Source: Bacteroidales bacterium (GTDB lineage: Bacteria; Bacteroidota; Bacteroidia; Bacteroidales; JAGOPY01). Taken from it: a stretch of DNA of 38,510 nucleotides. Position 1 is the stretch's first letter; the number at the start of each line of letters is the position of its first letter. Of this stretch, positions 22,301 through 38,420 are shown in pieces. The notes under the pieces were generated by a model. The model was not told the DNA's origin. It was given only the letters and a program-made list of their open reading frames with translations, and made no database searches. Made by a program: the position numbers and the translations under genes. The stretch is from the NCBI GenBank assembly GCA_019429045.1, contig JAHYJL010000007.1, forward strand, positions 1 through 38,510, read 5' to 3'.

Positions 22301-24634
22301 TTGAAGAAATTCATCCCGCCGGTCATTTTGTTATTGGCCAGTGCGGCCATTATATGGCTATTTTACGGCCAGGCGATTTTAAGCGCTGATAATATCCTTT
22401 TCAGTGATGAAGGGGATGCGATCAAAAATTACTTTTCTTATGCCTGGCATATCGCGCACGACAGCTCCTGCGTGAATTTTCAGGGAATGAACTATCCCTA
22501 CGGGGAGCACCTCATATATGCGGATGGCCATCCGGCCCTTTCCAATTCACTCAGGATGCTATCTGCCAGGTTTGAATTCTTCAATACCCACAGCATCGGT
22601 GTCCTGAACCTCATCATGGTCTTCTCTATATTCCTGACCTTTATTACGTGCTATTTCCTCCTGCGGGAGTTTGATATTAGCACGTGGATAAGCCTCCTTT
22701 TCTCTTTCGGTATGGCCCTTCTGGCGCCGCAGATTTTCCGGATGACAGGGCATTTCGCACTTTCTTACAGCGTGGCCATCCCGCTTGCCTGGCTCCTGGC
22801 CATAAAAGCCCTTAAAAGCCCTGGAAACGCCATTTTCGGAATACTTCTCTTCCTAAGTTGCCTCCTCTGGATGTTCATCCACGCCTACCTGGGTATCATC
22901 GTCATATCATTTTTATCATTGCTCATTATCTTTGAAATGATTCCCGTAAGCGGTAAAAAGTTTCATCCGGGATATCTCCTGCTACTGGCAGCAGTTGTTC
23001 TGCCGGTGATTATTTTTTACCTCAGCCTGATACTGACAGATGTGCACACCGGAAGGACCGTCAATCCTTCGGGCTTTTTCTTCTATAATGCTGAAATCGA
23101 CGATGTATTCATCCCTCATCAGGGCCTTTTCAGGGAACTGCTTGACAGGCTGACAGGAAACATCATTAACCAGGAATGGGAAGCTCGCAGCTATGTGGGA
23201 TTTTCCACGACGATCATTCTTCTGGCAAGCTTAATTGCATTGATCACCAGGCACATCGTGCCAAAAAGAACTGGCAGGTTTGTTATTTACACGACCGACA
23301 GGTATTTAAAGCTCTCTCTCCTGTCGGCCTTTATCCTCTTGCTTTTTGCCATGGCTTTTCCTTTCAAGCAAATACCCGGGATGATTGAAGCTTTTCCGGT
23401 CCTCAAGCAATTCAGGGCGACAGGGCGGTTCACCTGGCCATTTTTCTTCACGGCGATGGTTTTTTCAGCCATATTTCTGCAGAATCTTCATAAAAATCTT
23501 AAAGTTAAAAACAAGAAATACATTTCCATTTTCCTGATCCTGGTTGTTGCTGCGTTGAATATCGCAGAAGCTATACCATACCATTCCACTACATCAAAGG
23601 CAATCATAAAATCGCCTAATCATTTCAGAAAAGATTTATTGCCGGATAATTATATTTCTGCCCTGAACGCCATTAAGCCTGATGATTTCCAGGCGATTGT
23701 CAGTCTCCCGTTCTATTACTTTGGCTCTGAAAGCTTTTCCCGGCCGCGGAATAGTGAAGCCGTAAGAACCTCCATGATCATCTCTTATCACACCGGCATC
23801 CCCCTGGTCAATGCTTACTTAACCCGAACAAGCATTGCTGAAAGCAAGAACATCGTTCAGCTTATCTCTCCAGATTATTATACAAAAGAGATCATCGCTG
23901 ACCTGCCCTGCCTGAAGCCATTGTTACTTGTTAAATCGTCCGCTGATCTGACAATAAACGAGCAGGATTTGCTGAAAAAAGGGGCACTGTTTTACAAAGA
24001 TCATGAGTTGGGCCTGTATTCCCTATCGCTGGGGGATCTCACGCGAAACAGCGGCAGGGATATTATCGACTTGTTTCAGCAGCAAAGGCACACATTAACC
24101 CGGCGAGGTAAATTCTACGCTACGGATTCATCTTCATTAATTTTTTTCACGAGTTATGATGATCGGCCTTCAGCGATCAGGCTGGAAGGTGAGGGTGCTT
24201 TCAGTTCGATAAAGAGAGGGGAAAATATCCTGGCTGAATTTAGTCCGGAAACATTCGCTGAGGGGAAAGAATACCACCTGAGCGTCTGGATGCATAACGG
24301 CGTGCCCGATGCGCTCAACCTGTGGTTCCGGCTGATCATCGGGGAATATGATGAAAGGGTAGGGAAATGGCATTCAACTGTATATTTTCCTGAGGAAGCA
24401 GAAACGATCGATGGCGACTGGTCGCTGGCAGAAGGGGTATTCCAGGTAAGGGATGCGCGCCATAAGATCAGGATTATCACAAAGGGAAGCCAGGCAGAAA
24501 AAGCGCCATTCCATGCCGATAATCTGCTGATCCGGGAAAGCGGCACCGATGTTTACCGGTTTGATGAGCCATCGCAAACCTTGTTTTACAACAATCACAG
24601 GATCAGGGACGGATCAGGGACTCCATCCCTGTAG
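22301..24634 (+). CDS. large polytopic membrane protein, GT-C-like, ending in a REP
   Basis: A 777-aa protein. The first 400 or so residues hold about 11-12 membrane helices, with the first external loop containing FSDEGDAIKNYFSYAWHI and GMNYPYGEHLIYADG, which resembles the acidic loop of YfhO-like and other GT-C glycosyltransferases. The last 350 residues are soluble and beta-rich (FSPETFAEGKEYHLSVWMHN), possibly a carbohydrate-binding-like domain. The function is probably envelope glycan synthesis, but I would not name it. It starts with TTG at 22301. The final residues GSGTPSL and the stop codon are encoded by a REP repeat (24617-24629), so the natural end has been replaced or extended. 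Confidence 0.75.
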   Translation: MKKFIPPVILLLASAAIIWLFYGQAILSADNILFSDEGDAIKNYFSYAWHIAHDSSCVNFQGMNYPYGEHLIYADGHPALSNSLRMLSARFEFFNTHSIGVLNLIMVFSIFLTFITCYFLLREFDISTWISLLFSFGMALLAPQIFRMTGHFALSYSVAIPLAWLLAIKALKSPGNAIFGILLFLSCLLWMFIHAYLGIIVISFLSLLIIFEMIPVSGKKFHPGYLLLLAAVVLPVIIFYLSLILTDVHTGRTVNPSGFFFYNAEIDDVFIPHQGLFRELLDRLTGNIINQEWEARSYVGFSTTIILLASLIALITRHIVPKRTGRFVIYTTDRYLKLSLLSAFILLLFAMAFPFKQIPGMIEAFPVLKQFRATGRFTWPFFFTAMVFSAIFLQNLHKNLKVKNKKYISIFLILVVAALNIAEAIPYHSTTSKAIIKSPNHFRKDLLPDNYISALNAIKPDDFQAIVSLPFYYFGSESFSRPRNSEAVRTSMIISYHTGIPLVNAYLTRTSIAESKNIVQLISPDYYTKEIIADLPCLKPLLLVKSSADLTINEQDLLKKGALFYKDHELGLYSLSLGDLTRNSGRDIIDLFQQQRHTLTRRGKFYATDSSSLIFFTSYDDRPSAIRLEGEGAFSSIKRGENILAEFSPETFAEGKEYHLSVWMHNGVPDALNLWFRLIIGEYDERVGKWHSTVYFPEEAETIDGDWSLAEGVFQVRDARHKIRIITKGSQAEKAPFHADNLLIRESGTDVYRFDEPSQTLFYNNHRIRDGSGTPSL

Positions 24635-24671
24635 ACAGGGACTCCATCCCGGGTAACAGGGACTCCGTCCC
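24617..24671 (+). repeat. REP-like repeats, cluster 1 (3 forward copies)
   Basis: Three copies of the 13-bp imperfect palindrome: GGGACTCCATCCC at 24617-24629 and 24638-24650, and GGGACTCCGTCCC at 24659-24671, spaced exactly 21 bp start to start. The first lies inside the 3' end of the preceding gene. Confidence 0.85.
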
Positions 24672-24674
24672 TAT

Positions 24675-24780
24675 GACCATATAAAACCGCCCACCGCCCA
24701 TGTGAACGTCAGCATTGGTATATAGATTATCCTATTTCGTAGATACCAATGAGCAAATCCGCATGGGCGATGGGCGATGG
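24675..24780. repeat. 106-bp hairpin module, copy 1
   Basis: A non-coding module starting GACCATATAAAACCGCCC and ending GGGCGATGGGCGATGG. It folds into a long hairpin: CGCCCATGTG (24695-24704) with CGCATGGGCG (24760-24769), and CATTGGTAT (24713-24721) with ATACCAATG (24743-24751). A second copy of the same length lies 229 bp away. Confidence 0.7.
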
Positions 24781-24823
24781 GATATGGTCGATATATAATG
24801 CATTAACCAGAAATTCATTCACA

Positions 24824-24899
24824 GGGACTCCATCCCTTTAGACAGGGACTCCGTCCCGGGTAACAGGGACTCCATCCCTATTCGGAGGGACTCCGTCCC
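24824..24899 (+). repeat. REP-like repeats, cluster 2 (4 forward copies)
   Basis: Copies at 24824-24836, 24845-24857, 24866-24878 and 24887-24899, alternating CCATCCC and CCGTCCC, again with a strict 21-bp period. The cluster lies between the two 106-bp hairpin modules. Confidence 0.85.
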
Positions 24900-24903
24900 T
24901 ATT

Positions 24904-25009
24904 GACCATACAAAACCGCCTATTGCCCATGTGAAGGTCAACATTGGTAAATAGAATATCCCATTTTCTAAATACCAGGGGGCAAATCCGTATGGGCGAT
25001 GGGCGATGG
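24904..25009. repeat. 106-bp hairpin module, copy 2
   Basis: A second copy of the module at 24675-24780, with about 16 differences by eye. The outer stem GCCCAT/ATGGGC is kept, while the inner 9-bp stem is weakened to TGGTA/TACCA. The bases from 25010 to about 25150 hold nothing I recognise apart from AT-rich sequence. Confidence 0.65.
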
Positions 25010-25150
25010 TTGATTTTTAATCAATTAACTACTAATTTGCCATTTCCCTTGACACTTTAGTTTCGAGCAAACCAGGTAAAAACCTCCAAAATCGGTATCC
25101 TTAGCGCTGGGGTGGATTGCTTAATGATCAATAAGGATATCTGATGCACA

Positions 25151-25185
25151 GGGACGGAGTCCCTGTCCCGGAGGGATGGAGTCCC
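25151..25185 (-). repeat. REP-like repeats, cluster 3 (2 reverse copies)
   Basis: GGGACGGAGTCCC at 25151-25163 and GGGATGGAGTCCC at 25173-25185, the reverse complement of the forward repeats. They lie 43 bp before the Na/Pi cotransporter start and face clusters 1-2 across the hairpin modules. Confidence 0.85.
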
Positions 25186-25227
25186 TTATCAAATATCTCA
25201 AAAATAAATCCTATTTTTGAAGCCATA

Positions 25228-26889
25228 ATGAATTTCGACATCTGGATGCTAATCGCCGGGATCGGCATCTTCCTGTTCGGGATCTACCTGATGGAGGAGT
25301 CGCTGAAAGCGCTTTCGGGAAAGGCTTTTAAGTCATTTATCCGGAAGTATACTTCCACCCCCATCAAAGCCATTGCCACCGGGACATTGTCAACTGGCAT
25401 CCTGCAAAGCAGCTCGGCGGTGACCCTGATGGTCCTGGCCTTTGTCGGAGCGGGCATTATGACCCTCTCCAACGCTTTTGGGGTGATCCTTGGATCTAAT
25501 TTAGGCACAACGCTCACCAGCTGGATCGTCGCCACGGTAGGCTTCAAAGTGGATATCGAATCTTTTGCGCTGCCTTTTATCGGCATCGGGGGACTGGGGC
25601 TCATTTTCCTGGGGCGCTCAAGCCGGATGTCGAATATCAGTAAATTACTGGTAGGTTTCGGTTTCCTCTTCCTGGGCTTGAACTACATGAAGGTGAGCGT
25701 AGAAGAATTCACCGCTCTGTTCGACCTAAGTGATTTCAAAGATTATCATCTGCTTGTGTTCGTCCTCCTGGGGTTTATCATCACGGCCGTGATGCAGTCG
25801 AGTTCAGCCGCCGTGGCCATCATCCTGACTGCCGTTTACGGAAATGCGATCGATTTTTTTACCGCCTCGGCCATGGTCATCGGCACCAACATGGGGACCA
25901 CGGTGACCGTTTTGATCGGAAGTTTCGGCGGACCTGTCGCGAAAAAGCAAGTGGCCATGTGCCATGTCATCTTCAATCTCATCACAGGCATTGTCGCCAT
26001 TGTTTTCCTGAAGCCTCTCAATTACGTGGTGCTGGATGTGTTCAGCCTGAAAAATGATCCCGTGATGGCCCTGGCGTTGTTTCACACCCTCTTCAACGCC
26101 CTCGGGGTCATCCTCTTCTTTCCATTCCTCCGCATTATCGCATCCTTCATCACCCGGCTGATCAAAGACAAGAAAGTGCATTTGTCACAATATGTCTCCA
26201 ATGCCACCGCCGAAGTGCCCGAAGCGGCCCTTGTCGCGATGAAAAACGAATCGGCCTATCTCATCCGCCTGGTCATGGCCCATAACCTGAAATTACTTCA
26301 CATCGACACGAAACTGGTGTTATCTCAGGCTCAGACCTCTTCCGACCCGGTCTTTTCCAGAACCTACGATAAGATCTATTCTGTCATTAAATCGGTGCAG
26401 TCCGAGATATTCCTCTTTTCATCGAAGCTGCAGACCCAGCCATTGACAAAAGATGAGTCGCTCCGGCTCAATAAGAAGCTTCATTCCGTCCGCTATGGCG
26501 TATCTTCCGCTAAGACGCTGAAAGATATCGCTCATGAACTCGAAAAGATGGACCAGTCGGACCTGCCTGCGATGACCAGGAAGCACCAGGAATTCCGGAA
26601 AAAAATGATGCACTTCTACATGATATTTGATGAACTGCTGGAAAACCGGGACAGCGAAGTCAACCTGCCACGGCTGACAGAATTGATGCAAAAAATGCGG
26701 GACGATGAGCAGAACAGCATACAGGAGACGGGCGATTTCATCAGTTCCGCCGGGCTGGGCGAAGCAGAAATATCCACTTTGCTTTCGGCCAGCAGAAGCT
26801 TCACGCTTTCTTTACGGCAACTGGCATTATCGGTAAAAGACCTGGTGCTAACCACAGAACAGTCTGAGATTTACGATAATACGATTTAG
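25228..26889 (+). CDS. Na/Pi cotransporter family protein (NptA/PhoU-like)
   Basis: A 553-aa protein. The N-terminal 320 residues hold two inverted Na/Pi cotransporter repeats, each with the QSSSA motif: GILQSSSAVTLMVLAFVGAG and AVMQSSSAAVAIILTAVYGN, and the paired GSNLGTTLT and GTNMGTTVT. The C-terminal 220 residues are helical and PhoU-like. It probably imports phosphate with sodium or takes part in phosphate sensing. The ATG at 25228 is preferred: the longer frame from 25144 would translate REP repeats. Length fits the family. Confidence 0.92.
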   Translation: MNFDIWMLIAGIGIFLFGIYLMEESLKALSGKAFKSFIRKYTSTPIKAIATGTLSTGILQSSSAVTLMVLAFVGAGIMTLSNAFGVILGSNLGTTLTSWIVATVGFKVDIESFALPFIGIGGLGLIFLGRSSRMSNISKLLVGFGFLFLGLNYMKVSVEEFTALFDLSDFKDYHLLVFVLLGFIITAVMQSSSAAVAIILTAVYGNAIDFFTASAMVIGTNMGTTVTVLIGSFGGPVAKKQVAMCHVIFNLITGIVAIVFLKPLNYVVLDVFSLKNDPVMALALFHTLFNALGVILFFPFLRIIASFITRLIKDKKVHLSQYVSNATAEVPEAALVAMKNESAYLIRLVMAHNLKLLHIDTKLVLSQAQTSSDPVFSRTYDKIYSVIKSVQSEIFLFSSKLQTQPLTKDESLRLNKKLHSVRYGVSSAKTLKDIAHELEKMDQSDLPAMTRKHQEFRKKMMHFYMIFDELLENRDSEVNLPRLTELMQKMRDDEQNSIQETGDFISSAGLGEAEISTLLSASRSFTLSLRQLALSVKDLVLTTEQSEIYDNTI

Positions 26890-27118
26890 CAAAATGTAAG
26901 CGATCGGATCGGGAGGGCCGCAGGTGTGTAACAGGGACTCTATCCCGGGCGAATGAATTAGTAGTCCGACCTTTAGATTTGTCCCCTAGACGCCTGATCT
27001 ATTACCTTTACGACTACCACAGTCAGCATCCGAGGCCCCAGGAAGAAACGGCTTTAGTCGTTGGTGCATGACCCAAACGGGACCCACCCGTCCCGATCCC
27101 ACGGGAGTGTCAAATAGC
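26890..27118. other. intergenic region with one REP and a small hairpin
   Basis: Holds one variant REP (GGGACTCTATCCC, 26934-26946) and a perfect hairpin CGGGAC-CCACCC-GTCCCG at 27078-27095 that could end transcription of the minus-strand FISUMP gene, although only a short T-run follows. Nothing else recognisable. Confidence 0.5.
26934..26946 (+). repeat. REP-like repeat, cluster 4 (1 variant copy)
   Basis: GGGACTCTATCCC, one base different from the consensus, 45 bp after the Na/Pi cotransporter stop. Confidence 0.7.
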
Positions 27119-28458
27119 CTAGAAATCTCTGAGGCAACGGACGCTGAAACCGAATGTCTTGTGCCAGCCGTAGTAGTCGCTCCGGCCTACTTCCGGGAAG
27201 TCGTAACTGAGGTCACGGCCCCATACCCCGTTACCACTTCCCTCCGTCGATGTCCACCAACCGCCGTAGATGCCAACATAGTCGAAGAAACCAACGCCGT
27301 AGTAGCGGTAGCCACCGGGCAGACCTGAGAAGCCGAACAGGTCGGCGCCGTTGAAATTTGCATACCAGCCGCTGGTGGTCTTCAGGTTCGTCCCGGCATC
27401 GTAACCACGATATCCCCAGCTATCCCATAAGATATTGCCAATCCCATACTGGCTGTCCACCGCCCCTTCCAGCACCTTCCACTCCTCATCCGTGGGCACA
27501 TGCCAGCCCGGCGGGCAGATGCCCCGGGCGCCCTGCTGGGTGGTGTACTGCATCATCTCATCCCACTGGTAGAGGCCGCCGTACTTTGTACAACTGTCGG
27601 GTGCGTTGTTGTAACAGTACTTCTCAATGGTTCCATTGTTCGATTGATTTGGGCTTCCAGGGATCATCGTCCCCACGTTCAGGTTCTCCTTCAGCCAGCA
27701 CTGGCTGAAGACCTGGATGGTGTTGTATACCTGTCCTTCGTATTCCACCGTGGGTGTTCCCGGGCAGGGGATATTGGTGGCGAACTGAAAGGTGTAGGTG
27801 GTGCTTTCCTCCGGTGAATCCAGCATGCCTGATTCAAGGCCGTTGGCGTAGCCAATAAACAGCAGTTCATCGCCGGGGGTGAAAGAGAAACTCTGAATGG
27901 CTTGCATGGCTTTTACCTGTGGGGAAGAATCCTCGCTCCATAAATATTCAAGTGAACTCTTTCCCCCTGAATTGAAACCCGTCTGTAGGATTTTGATGCT
28001 GCTGCTCTGTCCCTGCCAACAGGCGATAAAAAAATACAGGCTACTGTTTCCGGGGGTGAACCGGAACGAATGTTTTCCTTTATCTAACACTCTTTCACTT
28101 TTGACAATCATTCGCCCCAGGATATCTGTGACGATGATGCTAACCTTGTCCTTCTCAGGAACATAAAGCGAAACAGTGGTCTGGTCTGTCACCGGGTTGG
28201 GATAGTTCTGAAAGACCTGGAATGAATTTTCTCCTTTGGAAATCTCAGGGATTCCAACATAGTAAATGGATAACACCGTATCGGGCCAGTACAGCACTGT
28301 ATCGCCCCCCTGGGTGCGGTTCATCACTTTAATACTGTCGAGCTGCACATAGACACCGTTGTTCTCAGCGGTGAAGGTCAGCTCCAGTGTAGGGCGCTGG
28401 GAAAACAAGCCCAGCGAATCATTGCCAACAATGCAATAAGGGTAATTTTTTTTGGCAT
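27119..28458 (-). pseudogene. FISUMP-domain secreted protein, frameshifted near the signal peptide
   Basis: The mature frame encodes about 430 residues: an N-terminal segment (RPTLELTFTAENNGVYVQLD), a Por/T9SS sorting-like domain (VFQNYPNPVTDQTTVSLYVP, then ILGRMI), and a C-terminal FISUMP domain (QCWLKENLNVGT, GICPPGWHVPTDEEW, FSGLPGGYR, GWWTSTEG, FSVRCLRD). A good signal peptide, MPKKITLIALLAMI, starts at ATG 28458 but in another frame, and stops at 28378. Adding one base at 28417-28418 would join it to SLGLFSQ and the mature part. The TTG-started open frame reaching 28516 lacks a signal and is probably not the start. It is either a recent frameshift mutation or a sequence error. The product would be exported, with unknown function. 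Confidence 0.7.
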
Positions 28459-28543
28459 GGGCGGATTGGTTAATGTTTGAATCGGCTAATATAATCAATT
28501 TAGGGGCGGAAAGCAAGGAGAAAATGGCAGGGAGACATTAACA

Positions 28544-28577
28544 GGGACTCCATCCCGGAGAAGAGGGACTCCATCCC
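28544..28577 (+). repeat. REP-like repeats, cluster 5 (2 forward copies)
   Basis: GGGACTCCATCCC at 28544-28556 and 28565-28577, with a 21-bp period. They lie upstream of the FISUMP gene and downstream-facing towards the RAYT gene. Confidence 0.85.
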
Positions 28578-28656
28578 TCAGTAGTCAAAAAGGAATTGTT
28601 TCCAAATTTTTTCAAAACTAGCGGGTATATTTCCTGATTTTCCGGATTAACAGGCA

Positions 28657-28731
28657 GGGACTCCATCCCTTTCAATGGGACTCCATCCCCATTCGGAAGG
28701 ATCATATCCCGGTGCACTGGGATGCAGTCCC
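28657..28731. repeat. REP-like repeats, cluster 6 (2 forward, 1 degenerate reverse copy)
   Basis: GGGACTCCATCCC at 28657-28669 and 28677-28689 (forward), then GGGATGCAGTCCC at 28719-28731, a reverse copy with one changed base. The last lies 34 bp before the RAYT start codon. Confidence 0.8.
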
Positions 28732-28765
28732 ATTTCATTTATTCATTCATTTAAACCCTAAAATT

Positions 28766-29368
28766 ATGCCCTCTAAAAAACTTAAAACTCCGCTACGCCC
28801 TGACAGATATTATCATATCTACAACAGGGGAAATAATAAAGAAAAAATATTCTATCATTCTGGCGATTACTTTTCCTTTCTCGCTAAGTACAAGGAATAT
28901 GTTGCACCTTATGTCAGGACATATTCATTCTGCCTGATCCCCAATCATTTTCACCTACTGATCAAGACGGGCTATGAATTTGAATCTGCACAAATGAGCA
29001 TTCCAAATCAATTGAGAAAGCTATTCATATGTCATGCCCAGCGTATTAATTCAATGCAAAGGAGAACAGGTGGATTATTTACCAAAAGCTACCAGAGAAT
29101 TGAAATCAAAGAAGAAGCATATCTGACGCAAGTGGTCAATTATATTCATAAAAATCCTGTGAAGCACGGCGTGGAAAGGAATTTCGAAAAATATATCTAC
29201 AGCTCTTATAAAATAATTCTTAGTGATTCAGAAACCTTACTTGCAAGAGATGAGGTGCTGGATTGGTTCGGCGGAAAACAGGCATTCATTGACTTTCATT
29301 ACAACGATTTAACAGACCCAAAAACCTTCGGTTTATTAAACCTTGAAGAGAACGAAATAAAAACATGA
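28766..29368 (+). CDS. REP-associated tyrosine transposase (RAYT)
   Basis: A 200-aa Y1 transposase. The HUH metal-binding motif is His61-Phe-His63 in NHFHLLI, and the catalytic tyrosine is probably Tyr126 in VVNYIHKNPVKHG. The opening RPDRYYHIYNRGNNKEKIFY and GGLFTKSYQRIEI are typical of the REP-associated group rather than IS200/IS605 proper. RAYTs are single-copy, domesticated-looking enzymes that nick and mobilise REP palindromes. The frame upstream to 28712 would translate a REP, so I use ATG 28766. REP copies lie 34 bp before the start and 6 bp after the stop, in opposite orientation, which strongly supports the role. Confidence 0.92.
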   Translation: MPSKKLKTPLRPDRYYHIYNRGNNKEKIFYHSGDYFSFLAKYKEYVAPYVRTYSFCLIPNHFHLLIKTGYEFESAQMSIPNQLRKLFICHAQRINSMQRRTGGLFTKSYQRIEIKEEAYLTQVVNYIHKNPVKHGVERNFEKYIYSSYKIILSDSETLLARDEVLDWFGGKQAFIDFHYNDLTDPKTFGLLNLEENEIKT

Positions 29369-29373
29369 TTCCT

Positions 29374-29407
29374 GGGATGGAGTCCCTGTCAAAAGGGATG
29401 GAGTCCC
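29374..29407 (-). repeat. REP-like repeats, cluster 7 (2 reverse copies)
   Basis: GGGATGGAGTCCC at 29374-29386 and 29395-29407, 21-bp period, beginning 6 bp after the RAYT stop. Confidence 0.85.
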
Positions 29408-29477
29408 TGTTCACAATTGAAGATAATGATATTATAAAACGTAATTTTACAGCCTGCTAGATCTTAAAGAAAATGCC

Positions 29478-32354
29478 ATGGAAATGAAAACCCGGGAAAT
29501 CCAGACTATTTTTGACGCTTTCAGCCAAAAAGCCGAACCTGAATTTTTCAAATATTTTGAGGATAACATCAAAGAGCTGAACCACTTCATTACAAGCTAT
29601 GAAAAGCATTTCGGCAAACTGGAGGCTGCCATGGATGAACAGGCTGACCTGGTCGAAAGGGTCAAGGCTCACAAGACCTTCAAAGAAAATGTGCTGAAAT
29701 CGCTGCTAGCTTACCAGGAAGATTTACAAACGGGTGATTTCAAAACCCTTTTCGCAGATTTTATCCGGGAAGCTGAAAATGAAATCGGTAAGCTTGATGA
29801 AAGCATCACCGGCGAGCATAAAAAGCCCATTCCTTTCCGGAACATGGCCCGTTTTTACCTTTTGCACCAGTTTGCCGAAAATGCCCGGGAAATACTTCGG
29901 CAGGCGATGCAGGGAAAAAGCAGGGTCCTGGTCGCTTTGTGGCAGTTCGACGAGGCGTATGATAATGCTTTTCAGCCAGTGCTCACACGCAAAGCTGAGG
30001 ATGAACAGGCTAACGAACCCGATATTTCCATACCAGATCATCCGTTCAAACATCTGAAACAAGAGAATAAAGCGCTTCTTCAGAAGATAAAAACCGAAAC
30101 AGGGAACATCAGCCAGCAGGTCTTTCATGCCTTCGACGAATCCTTTCAGAGCGCTTTGACAGAAAAACGGCCAAAATCAAGCTTCCAGCATCAAAAATTA
30201 ACCAGGCAACTGAATATCATCAATGCAACACATGTCACCGAAACAGGGCGGTGGAAAAATACACACCATGTGCTGCTGGATGACTGGGCTGTCGACGTTG
30301 AAATCACCCACCTGTATTATTCGGTTTACGACCAGTATCATCATCTGAAAAACAATACAGATACAATCATATCGCAGGACATCGACACTTCATTTTCCAA
30401 AATCAGATCATTCATCAAGACCAGCGGAAAACGTATCGGGAAGTCTCCGGCTTCTTCAAAGGGTACGGCGGAAGTTCTAAGTGCGGAAAGGGATAAAATT
30501 GGCAAGGAACTGGTTGATAAGATCCTGACAAAGAGCGCAGAATCATTTACCAACTGCTTCTCGGAAGATTTTGATCTCTTCCAAAAAATGGTATTGGAAT
30601 TGACTGGCAAGGTGTCCGATAAACGAAGTTTTATCAGGAGCAAGGATTTTGACCAGGGGATTGGTGATTCGGAGATCAGTTATATTTCGCCCGGTGAATT
30701 GCTGAAAGTAGAAGCTGTGCCCCATTTCAGTGAAAATGTTATTGACATAAAGTCCCGGATTGATGGTCATCTGGAAAAAGTAAGGCTCATTTTGATGTCG
30801 TTGGGAACGGTTTGCGATTTCAACCTCGAATCGGCGCTCATTTACCTGGATGAGCCGGATAAGACGGCAAAAGAAGCTGTTGCCATCGCCCTGGAGGGTT
30901 ACGAGCGGGCATTGAATCAACTGGAGAAGGCTCAGGGGCTCATCCTTGAGATTCAAAACAGTATTGAGGATAACCTGCGTGATGCGGTAAATAACTTCAA
31001 CAACGAAATTCAAAAGCTCAAAAATACCGATAACCTTATCGAGCTGAATTTGAAAGTGGCCCGCATTAAAACAATAGAAAGATCGAAACGAATCAGGAAA
31101 CAGGGGTTAAATTATCTCAGGGCATTCTTCCCAAACGCGGTTATTCTCTCCAAACGCGGCTGGGGTTATATAACAGCCTTTATCCGTGATATCAGAATAC
31201 GGACAGGGTTTTTGTCACAAAAATCTGTCGTGTCTTTCGAACTCTCGGAATTCCTCAATGAAGCCAGACAGACGCTCAAAAAACTTCCTTTCGTCTACCA
31301 GCGGCTTTACCAGCTTCAGCCTACCCATGAGGATCGCTTCTTTGTAAACCGTGATAAAGAGCTTGGTTTACTGAGACAGTCTTACGAAAACTGGGTAAAA
31401 GACCGGTTCATTACCTGTGCCATTATCGGCGAAAAGGGGAGCGGCACAACCTCTTTGATCAATTATTTCCTGAGGGTTATCCCTTCCGATGTTTCCATTA
31501 GCAAGCATACACTGGGCGAAAAAATCTATACCGGCGGGAAATATTTTTCTTTCATGAATTCTTTGCTGGAAACATCCGGGATTGATTCCAATGAAAAGCT
31601 TATCGAAGCAATTAATGCTTCGCCCGGTGGGCGGATCATCATCCTGGAGAATCTCCAGCACATGTTCCTGAAGAAGGTGCATGGTTTTGAAGCGATAAAA
31701 TTGCTGTTTGAGCTGATGACACATACCTCCCGGAAAGTGATGTGGGTTGGTATATATACCCCTGTTTCATGGGAATACCTGGATAAGACGATTTCGGTCT
31801 CCAATTACTTTACCGATGAGATCCGTCTGGAAAAAATGCGTGATGACACCATCCGGGAGATTATATATAAACGCAACCGGCTGAGCGGTTACCAGATCAG
31901 GTTTCTCCCAACGGAAGAGATAACCCGGAGCAAATCGTTTCATAAGCTGGATGACCCGGGGAAGCAGCGCTACCTGGAAAAACAGTTTTTTTCCAACCTC
32001 AACCAGCTGGCAAACGGGAATATTAGCCTGGCACAGCTTTACTGGCTCCGGTCTACCTCATCGGTGGATGAACAGGCGATCAGTATCAGCATGATAGGCC
32101 GGCTGGATTATTCATTCATAAAGGACATTTCAGGTCATTCGCTCTTCGCTCTCCAGGTGCTATTGCTGCATGACGGGCTAACGCTGGAGGACTTTGCCAA
32201 ATCCATGAATGAGAGCATCACTGTCTGCAGGAACCTGCTGATACCCATGCTGGAAAAAGGCTTCCTGATCAGGCCAAAACAAAAATTCAATATAAATCCT
32301 ATCATTTACAAACCTGTAACGGATTACCTCTTATCCAGGAATTTCATTCATTAA
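29478..32354 (+). CDS. coiled-coil P-loop ATPase, unknown function
   Basis: A 958-aa protein without signal peptide or clear membrane helix. Residues 1-600 are mostly helical with long charged stretches. A P-loop NTPase domain follows: Walker A GEKGSGTTS at 651-659, a Walker B-like stretch RIIILEN at 719-725 with Glu as the likely catalytic residue, then a sensor-like VMWVGIYTPVSW. The last 100 residues (FALQVLLLHDGLTLEDFAKS, CRNLLIPMLEKGFLIRP) look like a winged helix. The order coiled coil, AAA/STAND-like ATPase, winged helix is that of a large regulatory switch protein. It is followed after 13 bp by an MscS channel, which suggests the two work together. I do not recognise a named family. 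Confidence 0.8.
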   Translation: MEMKTREIQTIFDAFSQKAEPEFFKYFEDNIKELNHFITSYEKHFGKLEAAMDEQADLVERVKAHKTFKENVLKSLLAYQEDLQTGDFKTLFADFIREAENEIGKLDESITGEHKKPIPFRNMARFYLLHQFAENAREILRQAMQGKSRVLVALWQFDEAYDNAFQPVLTRKAEDEQANEPDISIPDHPFKHLKQENKALLQKIKTETGNISQQVFHAFDESFQSALTEKRPKSSFQHQKLTRQLNIINATHVTETGRWKNTHHVLLDDWAVDVEITHLYYSVYDQYHHLKNNTDTIISQDIDTSFSKIRSFIKTSGKRIGKSPASSKGTAEVLSAERDKIGKELVDKILTKSAESFTNCFSEDFDLFQKMVLELTGKVSDKRSFIRSKDFDQGIGDSEISYISPGELLKVEAVPHFSENVIDIKSRIDGHLEKVRLILMSLGTVCDFNLESALIYLDEPDKTAKEAVAIALEGYERALNQLEKAQGLILEIQNSIEDNLRDAVNNFNNEIQKLKNTDNLIELNLKVARIKTIERSKRIRKQGLNYLRAFFPNAVILSKRGWGYITAFIRDIRIRTGFLSQKSVVSFELSEFLNEARQTLKKLPFVYQRLYQLQPTHEDRFFVNRDKELGLLRQSYENWVKDRFITCAIIGEKGSGTTSLINYFLRVIPSDVSISKHTLGEKIYTGGKYFSFMNSLLETSGIDSNEKLIEAINASPGGRIIILENLQHMFLKKVHGFEAIKLLFELMTHTSRKVMWVGIYTPVSWEYLDKTISVSNYFTDEIRLEKMRDDTIREIIYKRNRLSGYQIRFLPTEEITRSKSFHKLDDPGKQRYLEKQFFSNLNQLANGNISLAQLYWLRSTSSVDEQAISISMIGRLDYSFIKDISGHSLFALQVLLLHDGLTLEDFAKSMNESITVCRNLLIPMLEKGFLIRPKQKFNINPIIYKPVTDYLLSRNFIH

Positions 32355-32367
32355 ACAAGATGTAAAG

Positions 32368-33237
32368 ATGAAACGAATCATTCTCATAATATTAATGCTG
32401 GCAGGCAAGGCCGGTTTTGGACAGGAAGCGGAAGAGACAGTCATTACCAAACCGCTGGAACTAGTCGACATGATCTCTTTCTCAAATATTTTCTGGACGA
32501 TTATCCTGTTGGTTATCGGTTACCTGATGACACGGTTCATCACCCGGATTCTGAAGATCTTCGCGGAACGCAGCGCCAGGATCCGGATCACGATGAAGAG
32601 CATCATCCCGATCATCCGGATCATTATCTGGACTGTCATACTGATCATCATCATCAAAGGAATATATAATCCCCCGATCGAGATGTTGCTGGCCGTAACG
32701 GCAGCTGTTGCCATTGCCGTCGGTTTGGCAGCACAGGACCTGCTGAAGAATATTTTCGGCGGGATCATGCTGTTGTTCGACCGTCCTTTCCAGGTGGGCG
32801 ATAAGATTGAAGCAGGGAAATATTATGGGGAAGTCATTGAAATTGGCCTCCGGGCCACACGCATCGTCACACCCGATGATTCGACCGTTACTATTCCAAA
32901 CATGGAGCTGATGAACAGCTCCGTATCCAATGTCAACACCGGGGAGCTGAACTGCCAGGTGGTGGCTGAGATCATTCTCCCAATTAATGTGGACACGCAA
33001 CTGGTGCGTAAAATAGCGACAGAAGCCGCGCAGGTTTCAAAATACATCTTCCTGAATAAACCTATTGTGGTTTTATTCTTCAATGAGATGTACCAGCGCC
33101 GGTCATACCTGAAAATGCGGCTGAAAGCCTATGTGATGGATATTCGCTATGAATTTGAATTCAAGAGCGATATGACTGAAACGGTCATCCGGGAGCTGCT
33201 CAGCCATGGGATTATTAAGAAAGAAGACCTGGACTAG
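32368..33237 (+). CDS. MscS-family mechanosensitive ion channel
   Basis: A 289-aa protein with an N-terminal signal-like segment (1-18), three membrane helices and the MscS beta and C-terminal domains. The pore helix is AVAIAVGLAAQDLLKNIFGG, matching the A-G-rich TM3 of MscS, and FDRPFQVGDKIEAG is the start of the beta domain. Such channels open on membrane tension to release ions and small solutes. It starts 13 bp after the large ATPase, so the two are almost certainly co-transcribed. Length is usual for the core family. Confidence 0.92.
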   Translation: MKRIILIILMLAGKAGFGQEAEETVITKPLELVDMISFSNIFWTIILLVIGYLMTRFITRILKIFAERSARIRITMKSIIPIIRIIIWTVILIIIIKGIYNPPIEMLLAVTAAVAIAVGLAAQDLLKNIFGGIMLLFDRPFQVGDKIEAGKYYGEVIEIGLRATRIVTPDDSTVTIPNMELMNSSVSNVNTGELNCQVVAEIILPINVDTQLVRKIATEAAQVSKYIFLNKPIVVLFFNEMYQRRSYLKMRLKAYVMDIRYEFEFKSDMTETVIRELLSHGIIKKEDLD

Positions 33238-33246
33238 GTTATTTGC

Positions 33247-33714
33247 TCACCACTTTGTATAAGGGTTCCTGATAAGCATGACATTATAATATTTCAAATC
33301 ACCGGTGACCTCCTCCCCTAACCAGTCAGGTTTTTCGAATGCCTCCTGCTCTGATGCCAGCTCGATTTCAGCCACCACCAGGCCCTGGTTATCGCCATAA
33401 AATTCATCCACCTCGAAGGTATGGTCTCCCGCTTTCACAAGGTAGCGTGTTTTATCAATGACGCCCGGTTCGCATATCTTCAGCAATTCTTCCACATCCG
33501 AAAAAGGGATCTCCATCTCCCATTCGTAACGGATGGCGCCTGATGCATTGCCAATTCCCTTGACGGTAATAAATCCTTTATCTCCCTTAATCCGAACCCT
33601 TACAGTTCTTTCAGGTACTGAGGAAAGGTAACCCTGTATGATGCGGGTCTGTTGTTGGGCAAAAGACTTGAATTCACCTTTTACCAGGAATTTGCGTTCT
33701 ATTTCCTGAGCCAT
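33247..33714 (-). CDS. CYTH-domain protein (triphosphate tunnel family)
   Basis: A 155-aa protein with the CYTH motif EIERKFLV at residues 4-11 (ExExK), RTVRVRIKGDKGFITVKG and YEWEMEIPFSDVEEL, followed by TRYLVKAGDHTFEVDEFYGDN. These strands build the tunnel that binds triphosphates and divalent metal. Bacterial members hydrolyse tripolyphosphate or nucleoside triphosphates; a few make cAMP. The exact activity is unknown. It is convergent with the MscS gene, with only 9 bp between the stops. Confidence 0.92.
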   Translation of the reverse strand: MAQEIERKFLVKGEFKSFAQQQTRIIQGYLSSVPERTVRVRIKGDKGFITVKGIGNASGAIRYEWEMEIPFSDVEELLKICEPGVIDKTRYLVKAGDHTFEVDEFYGDNQGLVVAEIELASEQEAFEKPDWLGEEVTGDLKYYNVMLIRNPYTKW

Positions 33715-33752
33715 TTATCCAATTTTTTCTTTGTCACCCTTATATTAAACCT

Positions 33753-35522
33753 TTACAGTGGCCATATGTACATAATGAGCGGAATACCAATTACAGTAAT
33801 GATGACCTCCAAAGGCAATCCCATTCGCCAATAATCGGTAAATTTATATCCTCCCGGTCCCATCACCAGTGTATTGGACTGATGCCCGATGGGTGTCAGG
33901 AATGCGCAGGAACCTCCAATCGCAACTGCCATCAGGAAAGGGTCAATGGATAATCCAAGCCCATTAGCCACTCCGATGGCTATGGGTGCCATCAGCACAA
34001 CAGTAGCTGCATTATTAATGATATCTGATAAAAACATCGTGATAACGAGGATAATGGTTAAAACGACCCAGGGCTGCAGGCTGTGCCCGACCGTCAGGAC
34101 AAACCCGGCGATCCTCCCAGCGCCGCCGCTGGTTTCCAAAGCAATGCCCACAGGGATCATCGCGCCCAGGAGAATGATGACAGGCCAGTCGATACTGTTG
34201 TAAAACTCCTTGAGCGGCAATATACGGGCCAGTACCATGGCTATGGCTGCCATGGTAAAAGCCGCCTGAACCGGTAACAGACGTGTGACCACCAGTACGA
34301 TGGCTGCTGTAAAAATTCCCAGGGCCAGCGGGATTTTCGTTTTAAAGCCCAGCCGCAATCCCCGGCGGGCCAGCGGCAGGCAGCCCATCGAGGTGATCGT
34401 ATCGTATAGCATATGCTCGCGGCCCTGCAACAACAACACATCACCGGTCCGGAAGACCACATGATCTATGCGGCGCCGGATCTTGAACCCCCGCCGGGCA
34501 ACCGCCAGCAGGTTGATCCCGTAACGGCTGCGCATCCTTAGGGATGCGGCAGTGCGGTCTATCAACGATGAGTCAGCCATGACTACCGCTTCCGTAATGG
34601 CAATCTTATCCGATCCTTTGGCATCCTTCCGGAATTTCTTCTCTCCGACCAATGCTACGCCGGTGTCATGTATGAATGCCTTAAGCTCCTGTGCATTGGT
34701 TTCAAGGATGATAATATCTTTAACCAGGAGAGGCTCTTCCGGATCGGGCGCGTGAATGCGCTTATCCTGGCGGATAAGGCCCAGGATCTGCACATCGGCC
34801 TTCGATATCCTGGTCAGCTCGTCAATGCTCTTTCCGACAATTTTGGATTCTTTCGGAACAATCACCTCAGTGATATAATCGTCAATATTGAAAAGATCAG
34901 CATCCGATTTTGCAGCAGCCCGTTTTGGCAACAACCGCCATCCAACCAGTGTTATAAAAGCGATCCCAACCACTGTCAGGACGATCCCGACAGGCGTGAA
35001 ATTGAACATCCCGAAAGGTTCTCCCGTTTCATCGGCACGAAAAGTGGCAATGATGATATTGGGCGGGGTGCCGATAAGCGTTGTCATCCCTCCAAGCAAA
35101 GATGCAAAAGCAATCGGCATCAGGATATAGGAAGGCGGATACCCGTTTTTCCGGGCCATGTGGATAGCCACCGGCATCATGATGGCCAGTGCCCCGACAT
35201 TGTTCATAAAAGCAGATGCAACTGCTACGATGATGCAAAGGACAAAGATCTGCAGCAACAGATTATTGCCGAGTTTTATCACCCATTTGCCCAGCATATC
35301 CACCACCCCGGAATATTCCAAAGCTTTACCTATGATCAGCACCGCCGCCACCGTAATCACAGCCGGATGCCCGAAACCTTTGAATGCCGTTTCAGGATCA
35401 ATCACTCCGAAAATGATCAGGATGCTCATGGTAATCAGCGCCACCAGATCATGCCGGATGCGGCCCCAGGCGAAGAGGATCAGTGTAACTATCAGCGTCG
35501 CGAATACAATATGATGAGGCAT
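33753..35522 (-). CDS. SLC13-family permease with two RCK_C domains
   Basis: A 589-aa protein. N-terminal helices carry GVIDPETAFKGFGHPAVITV and the SLC13/DASS signature region GGMTTLIGTPPNIIIATF. Residues about 205-375 are two soluble TrkA-C (RCK_C) domains (VPKESKIVGKSIDELTRI, DSSLIDRTAASLRMRSRYGI), and the C-terminal half repeats the transporter fold, ending near CAFLTPIGHQSNTLVMGPGG. This is the common bacterial sodium/anion (often sulfate-like or dicarboxylate-like) permease layout. The substrate cannot be read. It is divergent from the gltP-like gene, with REPs in between. Length is normal. Confidence 0.92.
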   Translation of the reverse strand: MPHHIVFATLIVTLILFAWGRIRHDLVALITMSILIIFGVIDPETAFKGFGHPAVITVAAVLIIGKALEYSGVVDMLGKWVIKLGNNLLLQIFVLCIIVAVASAFMNNVGALAIMMPVAIHMARKNGYPPSYILMPIAFASLLGGMTTLIGTPPNIIIATFRADETGEPFGMFNFTPVGIVLTVVGIAFITLVGWRLLPKRAAAKSDADLFNIDDYITEVIVPKESKIVGKSIDELTRISKADVQILGLIRQDKRIHAPDPEEPLLVKDIIILETNAQELKAFIHDTGVALVGEKKFRKDAKGSDKIAITEAVVMADSSLIDRTAASLRMRSRYGINLLAVARRGFKIRRRIDHVVFRTGDVLLLQGREHMLYDTITSMGCLPLARRGLRLGFKTKIPLALGIFTAAIVLVVTRLLPVQAAFTMAAIAMVLARILPLKEFYNSIDWPVIILLGAMIPVGIALETSGGAGRIAGFVLTVGHSLQPWVVLTIILVITMFLSDIINNAATVVLMAPIAIGVANGLGLSIDPFLMAVAIGGSCAFLTPIGHQSNTLVMGPGGYKFTDYWRMGLPLEVIITVIGIPLIMYIWPL

Positions 35523-35604
35523 GCGTTGTTTATGAATGTTATATTATGGATCAACCACGAACTCATTATGTCGTTCAAATTTAAATAGTTTTTTTCAATT
35601 CACA

Positions 35605-35637
35605 GGGATGGAGTCCCTCCTGGAGGGACGGAGTCCC
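35605..35637 (-). repeat. REP-like repeats, cluster 8 (2 reverse copies)
   Basis: GGGATGGAGTCCC at 35605-35617 and GGGACGGAGTCCC at 35625-35637, with a 20-bp period, in the divergent region between the SLC13 and symporter genes. Confidence 0.85.
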
Positions 35638-35693
35638 TTTTTTATTCCATGGCTTTTTATACCTTTATTGCCTTAAAATGGAAGATTCCATCT

Positions 35694-36917
35694 ATGGCAA
35701 AACTTGTGAAAGCCCCCGCGCTCCACTGGCAGATCCTCATTGCACTTGTGCTCGCCGTTCTCTTTGGCGTATATCTCCCCGGTCAGGTCAATTATATCAG
35801 CTGGATGGGGACCATCTTCCTGCGCGCTCTGCAGATGATCATCATTCCGCTGGTCATCAGTTCGATCATCTCCGGGGTCACCAATATCGGGAATGCGGAA
35901 AACCTGGGCCGTCTAGGGCTTAAAACGATCATCTATTACATTTCCACCAGCACGCTGGCGATCCTGACCGGGCTGGCGCTGGTGAATATCGTAAAGCCCG
36001 GTGTCGGCGCCGACCTCAATCTGACACAGGAGGCCGAACTGGGCTTGGTGGAACACACCTTTAAAGACACGCTCATCCGCATCATCCCTGACAATATCTT
36101 CTCTTCAATGACCCAGAACGGCGAACTGCTGTCGGTCATTTTCTATGCTTTGATCTTTGGTTTTTTCATCACGCAGGTCCCTGCAAAACCAAGGGAAACG
36201 CTGACGGGCTTTTTCAACGCGGTATTTGACGTAATGATGAAGGTGACCATGTTCATCATCCGTTTCACGCCTTTCGGCATTTTTGGACTGGTGGCGGACA
36301 GGATTGCCCAGCAGGACGACCTGGGAGCGCTGGTGCAAAGCATGGGCAGCTATATGCTGGTGGTGATCGCCGGGCTGGCCATCCATGCCCTGGTCACCCT
36401 GCCGCTCATAGCCCGGTTTATCGGTAAAATCAACCCGCTGAAACATTTTCATGCTGTCAAGACCGCTTTGCTGACTGCTTTTTCTACCTCTTCCTCCAAT
36501 GCTACCCTGCCGCTGACGATACAATCGGTCGAAGAAAACGACGGCGTTTCGAACAAGATCTCCAGCTTCACCCTTCCGCTCGGCGCCACGATCAACATGG
36601 ATGGTACGGCGTTGTATGAGTGCGTTGCTGTGATGTTCATTGCCCAGGCATACGGTTTTGATCTCACTTTCGGGCAGCAGGTAATCGTAGTGATCACCTC
36701 GATCCTGGCATCCATCGGCGCCGCCGGCGTGCCCATGGCCGGACTGGTGATGATCACCATCATCCTTTCAGCCGTCGGGCTGCCCCTGGAAGGCGTCGGT
36801 CTGATCCTGGCCGTCGACCGCATCCTCGATATGTTCCGGACTTCCGTCAACGTCTGGAGCGACACCTGCGGAGCGGTGGTGATTGCCAGGAGCGAAGGGG
36901 AGGTGCTGAATGTATGA
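35694..36917 (+). CDS. dicarboxylate/amino acid:cation symporter (DAACS family)
   Basis: A 407-aa symporter of the GltP/DctA family. Recognisable parts are the serine-rich hairpin AFSTSSSNATLPLTIQ, the NMDGTALYE motif in TM7, SIGAAGVPMAGLVM in the second hairpin, and VDRILDMFRTSVNVWSDTCG in TM8. These residues bind the dicarboxylate or glutamate and the coupling ions. I chose ATG 35694; the longer ATG at 35649 would add 15 residues that look like translated spacer, next to the REP cluster. Length is normal for the family. Confidence 0.92.
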   Translation: MAKLVKAPALHWQILIALVLAVLFGVYLPGQVNYISWMGTIFLRALQMIIIPLVISSIISGVTNIGNAENLGRLGLKTIIYYISTSTLAILTGLALVNIVKPGVGADLNLTQEAELGLVEHTFKDTLIRIIPDNIFSSMTQNGELLSVIFYALIFGFFITQVPAKPRETLTGFFNAVFDVMMKVTMFIIRFTPFGIFGLVADRIAQQDDLGALVQSMGSYMLVVIAGLAIHALVTLPLIARFIGKINPLKHFHAVKTALLTAFSTSSSNATLPLTIQSVEENDGVSNKISSFTLPLGATINMDGTALYECVAVMFIAQAYGFDLTFGQQVIVVITSILASIGAAGVPMAGLVMITIILSAVGLPLEGVGLILAVDRILDMFRTSVNVWSDTCGAVVIARSEGEVLNV

Positions 36918-36948
36918 GTGATTAGTGATTAGTGATACTAAAGTGGCC

Positions 36949-38121
36949 TTATCTCCGGGCCATTATCCGGTCGGGACGGAGGCTTACATTGCTGAAAGGA
37001 TGGTTGTCGACGGCAGGGATTTTCTTTGAGATAAGTTTGTAGATATCGCGCAGATAGGCCTTTTCATCCGCGTCGCAGAATGAAAGGGCTTTCCCGCCAA
37101 GGCCTGCCCTGCCGGTACGGCCGATGCGGTGGACATAAGTCTCGGGAATGTTCGGGATCTCGTAGTTGATCACATGCGAAAGCTCATCGATGTCGATCCC
37201 CCTTGCCGCGATATCGGTGGCGATCAGCAGGCGGATCTTCCTCTCTTTGAAATTCCTGAGGGCCCGCTGACGGGCGTTCTGCGATTTGTTCCCGTGGATG
37301 GCCTCGGTAAGGATCCCCTGCCTTTTCAGATATTTCACTAACTTGTCGGCTCCGTACTTTGTCCGGGTGAATACCAGCGCCGACAATACAGACCGGTCTT
37401 TCAGCACATGCGACAGCAGGGCGGGCTTGTCTTTCTTATCCACGAAATAAACCGATTGCTCGATGATATCAACTGTTGAAGATACAGGCGTCACAGCGAC
37501 CATCACCGGTGAAGTCAGGATAGTGTCCGCCAGTTTCACGATTTCCGGCGGCATGGTGGCGGAAAAAAGCAAGGTTTGTCTTTTCTGAGGAAGCAGCGCT
37601 ATCACTTTTTTCACATCGTGAATAAAGCCCATGTCAAGCATCCGGTCGCCTTCATCCAGGACGAAGATCTTCACCTCAGTCAAGTGGATGAAGTTTTGCC
37701 CTATAAGGTCGAGCAGCCTGCCCGGTGTCGCGATCAATATATCGACACCCGCTTTAAGCGACTCGGTTTGCGGATGTTGCGTAACGCCGCCAAAAATAAC
37801 AGTGTGCCGCAATCCGGTATGTTTGCCATAGGCTGTAAAACTTTCCCCGATCTGGATGGCCAGCTCACGGGTTGGCGTCAGGATCAGGCTTTTAATCTTA
37901 CGGTGGCCATTCAGGAGCGGATTCTCCTGCTTTAACATCTGCAGGATGGGTATCGCAAAAGCGGCTGTTTTACCGGTGCCGGTTTGTGCGCAGCCGATCA
38001 GGTCTTTATGGTCGAGTAAAACAGGAATGGCTTTTTCCTGGATAGGTGTGGGTATTGTATATCCTTCTGTTTTTAAAGCCCGCAGAATGGGCTCAATAAG
38101 TCTTAAATCTTCGAATTTCAT
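36949..38121 (-). CDS. DEAD-box RNA helicase (RhlE-like), DEGD variant
   Basis: A 390-aa helicase core without a long C-terminal extension. Motifs in order: Q motif YTIPTPIQEKAIP, I AQTGTGKT, Ia PTRELA, Ib TPGRLLD, II LDEGDRMLDMGF, III SAT, IV ALVFTRTK, V ATDIAARGID, VI HRIGRTGRAG. Motif II reads DEGD rather than DEAD (37645-37656). RhlE-like helicases remodel RNA in ribosome assembly or mRNA decay, often at low temperature. It is a single gene, convergent with the symporter (31 bp between stops). All catalytic acidic and basic residues are kept, so it should be active. Confidence 0.93.
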   Translation of the reverse strand: MKFEDLRLIEPILRALKTEGYTIPTPIQEKAIPVLLDHKDLIGCAQTGTGKTAAFAIPILQMLKQENPLLNGHRKIKSLILTPTRELAIQIGESFTAYGKHTGLRHTVIFGGVTQHPQTESLKAGVDILIATPGRLLDLIGQNFIHLTEVKIFVLDEGDRMLDMGFIHDVKKVIALLPQKRQTLLFSATMPPEIVKLADTILTSPVMVAVTPVSSTVDIIEQSVYFVDKKDKPALLSHVLKDRSVLSALVFTRTKYGADKLVKYLKRQGILTEAIHGNKSQNARQRALRNFKERKIRLLIATDIAARGIDIDELSHVINYEIPNIPETYVHRIGRTGRAGLGGKALSFCDADEKAYLRDIYKLISKKIPAVDNHPFSNVSLRPDRIMARR

Positions 38122-38420
38122 GATAAATTATTAAGTAATTAGCTAACTGCCAATGATATATTGGGATTAATCAGCGGTCTGAGAATGGGAATTTCTTTAA
38201 CGGGAAGTCACACTACAGGCACAAAGATTGCCAAAGGGGCAGCTTTCTGGCTGCAAAGATAGTAAAAAACCCTAACTTTCACTTCAATCCAAATATAAAG
38301 GGATGGAGTCCCAATATAAAGGGATGGAGTCCCTGTTGGCAGGGATGGAGTCCCTGTAACAAGGTTTAGCTGATTAATTAATTACAGATTTTCACGGTAA
38401 ACAATCGCCCGTATTTTTGA
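38122..38420. other. intergenic region with REP cluster
   Basis: AT-rich spacer between the helicase start and the tail of the next minus-strand gene. It contains the REP cluster at 38300-38354; I see no other structured element. The helicase promoter should lie within the first 100 bp, but no clear TAnnTTTG element stands out. Confidence 0.5.
38300..38354 (-). repeat. REP-like repeats, cluster 9 (3 reverse copies)
   Basis: GGGATGGAGTCCC at 38300-38312, 38321-38333 and 38342-38354, exactly 21 bp start to start, as in clusters 1, 2, 5 and 7. Confidence 0.85.

Follow-up and report, generated by a model that had tools for sequence, protein, structure and literature searches.

A conserved gene pair encoding an AAA+-winged-helix protein and an MscS channel as a probable osmotic/ionic-homeostasis module

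The window analyzed in this work, i.e., the whole stretch of 38,510 nucleotides of contig JAHYJL010000007.1 from a Bacteroidales bacterium, harbors two adjacent genes, the first coding for a large protein, referred to here as the "ATPase", and the second for a mechanosensitive channel. The initial annotation had described an open reading frame (ORF) of 958 codons followed, after 13 bp, by an MscS channel, and this layout was borne out by the ORFs and by the Pfam and PDB matches. The features of the pair are the following:

29478..32354, plus strand: AAA+-winged-helix scaffold protein ("ATPase"), 958 aa (ORF; AF2 model; Foldseek)
29478..31202, plus strand: N-terminal all-helical domain, residues 1-575 (AF2 secondary structure, hydropathy scan)
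31242..32051, plus strand: AAA+ domain, residues about 589-858 (AF2/Foldseek)
31428..31454, plus strand: Walker A, degenerate, GEKGSGTTS at residues 651-659, with Thr instead of Lys657 (alignment columns, tree)
31635..31652, plus strand: Walker B strand, IIILEN at residues 720-725, without a D-E pair and with Asn at the catalytic Glu position
32052..32351, plus strand: C-terminal winged helix, residues about 859-958 (AF2; weak YusO profile match)
32355..32367, plus strand: intergenic gap, 13 bp (ORF coordinates)
32368..33237, plus strand: MscS channel, 289 aa (Pfam, PDB, AF2 pLDDT 88.8)
33124..33156, plus strand: signature KAYVMDIRYEF, residues 253-263, cytosolic alpha/beta domain, candidate docking site

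Immediately upstream of the pair lies a REP/RAYT-like system, in which a REP-associated tyrosine transposase at 28712-29368 (NCBIfam REP_Tyr_transpos, E 1.8e-14, under the curated cut-off) has hairpin repeats GGGACTCCATCCC on both sides (28540-29411); copies of this repeat with no more than one mismatch occur 22 times in the window, versus 0.07 expected by chance, and span positions 24617-38354. Downstream of the pair (33247-35522 and 35649-36917), Pfam recognized a CYTH-domain protein, a CitMHS/TrkA_C anion transporter and an SDF dicarboxylate symporter, the first two being encoded on the strand opposite to that of the pair.

The 289-aa protein matched PF00924 (E=9.7e-22), the other two MscS Pfam domains remaining sub-threshold, and its PDB matches were YnaI, MscK and MscS. 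The AF2 model consists of an N-terminal signal-like helix, three transmembrane (TM) helices (38-68, 70-100 and 104-138) and cytosolic beta and alpha/beta domains, so that the protein possesses both the PF00924 beta-domain and the pore TM3 that define the MscS superfamily, and shares with YnaI, MscK, MscS and MSL the three-TM pore module and the cytosolic domains. MscS channels are the textbook stand-alone valves gated by membrane tension, and the described members act alone or bear extra domains in the same chain; unlike them, the subfamily described here has a conserved cytosolic signature of its own and an obligate AAA+ neighbor. Three other MscS genes exist in the genome of the window, and they are clearly different (27-32% identity over partial matches). 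The signature, KAYVxDxRxE, was found in 93 of the 108 ATPase-paired channels of the unfused type, in none of the 11 unpaired MscS paralogs of the same loci (intact context), and in none of the 13 channels of the fused type discussed below; three more signature-bearing channels, located on cut contigs, stand outside these counts. The motif tracks pairing with the ATPase.

The 958-aa protein is much less readily recognized. Its only Pfam match was a sub-threshold one to AAA_16, no NCBIfam family scored over its cut-off, a single-sequence search of the PDB gave no match, and the family profile retrieved from the PDB only weak P-loop/winged-helix matches, including the winged-helix protein YusO. 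The AF2 model, based on an alignment of 62 relatives (mean pLDDT 87, pTM 0.69), places an AAA+ domain and a winged helix at residues about 589-958, and the best PDB matches of this part in Foldseek were Orc/Cdc6 and RuvB, with CED-4 ranking lower and with plant NLRs and TnsC also represented. This agrees with the likely winged helix at the C-terminus that had been proposed from the sequence. The coiled-coil character proposed for the same protein holds in part: residues 1-575 are indeed made of long helices, but the model does not describe a simple rod-like coiled coil, and the hydropathy scan of this region revealed no transmembrane segment. In the Balneola-type forms (L082-L086, L118-L121, L136) the protein consists of the AAA+ domain and winged helix alone (about 300-430 aa, depending on the ORF start), and therefore the helical arm is dispensable for pairing. 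The predicted P-loop AAA+ core followed by a winged helix, together with a conserved G-N motif close to the end of the AAA+ domain (alignment column counts), resembles STAND and Orc/Cdc6-like proteins (AAA_16, Orc1/Cdc6, CED-4, plant NLRs). However, the repeat sensor (TPR, LRR, WD40) and the effector that STAND proteins carry in one chain were not found, Pfam detecting no repeat family; in place of such a sensor, the members of this family possess long N-terminal helices or a transporter.

The association between the two genes was analyzed in both directions. Starting from the ATPase alone, 72 carriers were found among 395 genomes of the phylum, and 60 loci were taken with their flanks; an MscS gene was adjacent on the same strand in all 58 loci with readable flanks, window included, three further ATPase loci running into contig ends and being outside the 58. 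Starting from the C-terminal part of the channel alone, a collection of 84,980 genomes yielded 193 matches, the best 80 of which were kept: an ATPase gene adjoins the channel in 76 of these 80, that is, in 76 of 76 readable contigs, given that in the remaining four the start of the contig coincides with the channel gene or falls within it. This reverse search was built from the patterns of paired channels and hence measures this subfamily and not all MscS proteins; moreover, the two sets of loci share genomes and are not independent samples. After removal of duplicates, 129 distinct ATPase loci were obtained, family f81 (see below) aside. The pairing is far beyond chance, and counting how often the ATPase adjoins an MscS gene, as the initial annotation had proposed, thus gave the opposite of the rare adjacency that would have spoken against the pair. 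A scan of genome contigs with a single ATPase sequence found nothing because this protein diverges too fast, whereas the alignment of the channel C-terminus worked. A search of the class to which the window belongs found the family in 21 of 395 genomes and added 14 paired loci. Four loci that had appeared unpaired (L063, L066, L070 and L071) were rejected as such, since their ORFs were over-extended in GC-rich DNA and the channel emerged from a six-frame HMM search; L078 and L079 contain minimal MscS channels.

In the relatives, the two genes mostly overlap or are separated by gaps from a few to tens of nucleotides. The ATPase gene precedes the channel gene in most lineages, and the reverse order is found in one large and one small clade; on the tree, gene order changes state three times, twice by a flip and once through loss of the channel. 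The existence of both orders in separate clades implies that adjacency survives rearrangement. The loss concerns family f81 (six loci, L197-L202), in which an ATPase homolog lacks an adjacent MscS gene, both flanks being readable in L199 and L202, where the neighbors are, by inspection, miaA-like and panB-like genes. Since these proteins retain the P-loop Lys and are nested within the SLC12-fused clade on the tree, f81 looks like a derived loss of the channel. The f81 protein is about 1120 aa long and has neither an MscS nor a transporter neighbor. Finally, the distances among ATPases and those among channels are correlated (Mantel r 0.56, the highest of 999 permutations being 0.22), a finding that shows co-inheritance and not contact.

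As for the distribution of the pair, the carriers include Balneolia (Fodinibius, Gracilimonas, Rhodohalobacter, Balneola), Bacteroidales and Marinilabiliales-type bacteria (Ancylomarina, Natronoflexus, Geofilum), Cytophagales (Reichenbachiella, Marivirga, Fulvivirga), Aquimarina, Ignavibacteria and KSB1/Calditrichota, in addition to single metagenome-assembled genomes of Gemmatimonadota, SAR324 and Proteobacteria. Judging by their names alone, many of them are marine, saline or soda-lake organisms. The pair is present in 40 of 66 good-quality Balneolaceae genomes, and in this group it has a fixed housekeeping synteny, with an N-acetylmuramoyl-L-alanine amidase gene and a uridine-kinase-like gene upstream. 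No match to the pair was found among plasmid and phage records.

In distant members of the family the AAA+-winged-helix module is fused to a transporter. One clade has ATPases of 1640-1740 aa, whose 10-12 N-terminal TM helices make up an SLC12 cation-chloride cotransporter (E about 1e-49 for PF00324 and 1.6e-4 for the SLC12 C-terminal domain; E about 1e-69 for NKCC1/KCC structures in the PDB), followed by a minimal MscS protein of about 220-260 aa. The proteins of another clade (about 1500 aa) begin with a Na+/H+ exchanger (PF00999, E 7e-19); the fused gene is followed by MscS, and trkH and trkA come next in most members. Upstream of this fusion, six loci (L055, L056, L057, L058, L060, L062) contain a gene for a multi-TM protein of 414-422 aa. 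This protein, possibly a second antiporter, has no Pfam match (L055) and in BLAST weakly resembles the exchanger part of the fusion (E 3e-5). The same partners recur next to unfused forms, in the order TrkA-TrkH-Na+/H+ exchanger-ATPase-MscS in the Cytophagales loci L151, L156 and L166, and exchanger-ATPase-MscS in Natronoflexus and Alkalitalea. Among 100 operon-neighbor proteins, a set that omits 16 M49-type peptidase neighbors of Balneolaceae, we counted TrkH 10 times, TrkA nine, the Na+/H+ exchanger five and CorA three, and in a background of 100 other ORFs drawn at random from these loci none of the four was seen at least twice. The operon of the window itself and most Balneolaceae loci lack both ion transporters and Trk genes. 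The distant members of this AAA+ family thus bear as N-terminal domains SLC12 cotransporters and CPA Na+/H+ exchangers, which in animal cells are volume-regulation transporters; we know of no described SLC12 or exchanger protein with a C-terminal AAA+-winged-helix module or encoded together with MscS. The topology of both transporter types is established and places the fused AAA+ part on the cytosolic side, where the cage of MscS also lies.

A further question concerns the nucleotide site. A Walker A motif had been proposed at residues 651-659 of a "switch-like ATPase"; the position of the motif is correct, but a working nucleotide site is not what the sequence describes, with Thr657 in place of the Lys and IIILEN as the Walker B strand, and the P-loop Lys is absent not only from the window protein but also from nearly all of its clade. 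Indeed, the intact Walker A (GxxxxGK[ST]) and the acidic-pair Walker B of STAND proteins are both missing from the window protein, its Walker B ending in E-N and not in D-E or D-D. Within the family, the P-loop Lys is present in 34 of 63 aligned members, being replaced in the remainder by A, V, I, T, S, L, M, H or R. It is missing in 25 of the 27 rows of the window's clade on the tree (Aquimarina retains it) and, in the main channel-first clade, in each of the 16 members that could be read, and it is kept mainly in Balneolia (with a rare Arg), in KSB1-type forms and in the two transporter-fused forms. Almost family-wide, E-N, E-G or a similar pair takes the place of D-E at the end of the Walker B strand. 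With the Walker A Lys replaced and the catalytic Glu missing from Walker B, the window protein is probably inactive as an ATPase, a degenerate site not being proof that binding is lost, and a nucleotide-independent scaffold is the more likely description of it.

This bears on the possibility that the large protein is an AAA+ chaperone for the insertion, assembly or turnover of the MscS heptamer and not a regulator of open channels. The AAA+ fold, the obligate pairing and the short forms that retain just the AAA+-winged-helix module would all fit such an assembly or quality-control role. Nevertheless, with the Walker A Lys lost from most members of the clade of the window and the Walker B Glu almost family-wide, ATP-driven remodeling is unlikely, and fusion to a transporter suits regulation better than chaperoning; on the whole we regard this explanation as unlikely. 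Another possibility is that the Orc-like module binds DNA and regulates osmotic genes, MscS being merely co-transcribed. The nearest solved folds are in agreement with it, as Orc/Cdc6 and RuvB bind DNA through their winged helices; however, winged-helix domains are structural in many STAND proteins, the module is covalently joined to membrane transporters, and this reading would not explain why the module is obligately adjacent to one channel subfamily, so that we consider it very improbable. The weakest reading, which takes up the defense framing of the initial annotation, is that a STAND-like sensor would detect a phage product and open MscS to kill or arrest the cell: the CED-4 and plant NLR matches, the patchy occurrence in Bacteroidia and the known plan of a large sensor next to a membrane effector might suggest it, but PADLOC gave no match for either protein (E up to 1), the plasmid and phage records were likewise negative, the locus is chromosomally fixed in Balneolaceae, and the operons and fusions hold K+, Na+ and Cl- transporters, with Trk, exchanger and CorA genes leading the neighbors instead of defense genes or a mobile context, which makes it hardly credible and argues for a core ionic/osmotic function and not a mobile defense one.

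On the basis of these data, we consider it probable that the two genes represent a dedicated osmotic/ionic-homeostasis module, in which the 958-aa protein would be the cytosolic scaffold or regulator of its own MscS channel. The 289-aa protein, whose fold is assigned by homology, would form a heptameric channel presumably gated by tension. The AAA+-winged-helix scaffold, carried on its long helical arm, would bind the cytosolic cage of the channel, probably around KAYVxDxRxE, and would either set the opening threshold or hold the channel closed. The idea that the sensor could set the opening of the channel, put forward when the locus was first inspected, is thus supported as a reading of the conserved pair, the effect on gating being the conjectural part. 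Since the same module is fused elsewhere to exchangers and SLC12 cotransporters, its likely general role is to couple the uptake and the release of ions or osmolytes to the state of the cell, the transporter-fused cousins applying the same control to uptake. In the lineage of the window, given the degenerate nucleotide site, control by conformation (in response to crowding, ionic strength or partner binding) would be more likely than control by ATP turnover.

The pair had been noted as not corresponding to a recognized system, and in the open-access papers searched we found no description of an MscS-AAA pair, of SLC12-AAA fusions or of a Balneola MscS. A comparable arrangement is the TPSP-GT-MSC operon of Thermoproteus tenax, which joins a cytosolic osmolyte enzyme to a putative mechanosensitive channel; there, however, the channel is encoded with a trehalose-6-phosphate synthase/phosphatase and a glycosyltransferase, and no AAA+ protein takes part (PMC3634074).

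We also advance, more tentatively and as a plausible extension that falls somewhat short of probable, the idea that these proteins represent a new family of bacterial cell-volume regulators. The AAA+-winged-helix module would be the common cytosolic controller, fused to uptake transporters (the Na+/H+ exchanger or the NKCC/KCC-type SLC12) or standing alone, nearly always accompanied by an MscS channel dedicated to release, and one protein would thereby set both salt uptake and release; in the clade of the window it would act as a nucleotide-independent pseudo-ATPase sensor. An MscS subfamily that apparently never occurs without a large cytosolic partner, the kin of which form part of salt-uptake transporters, points to bacteria in which ion uptake and release may be jointly controlled by one protein. 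This is relevant to the setting of cell volume in halophilic and marine bacteria, and the repeated loss of the P-loop Lys represents a natural test of how an AAA+ domain may function without ATP.
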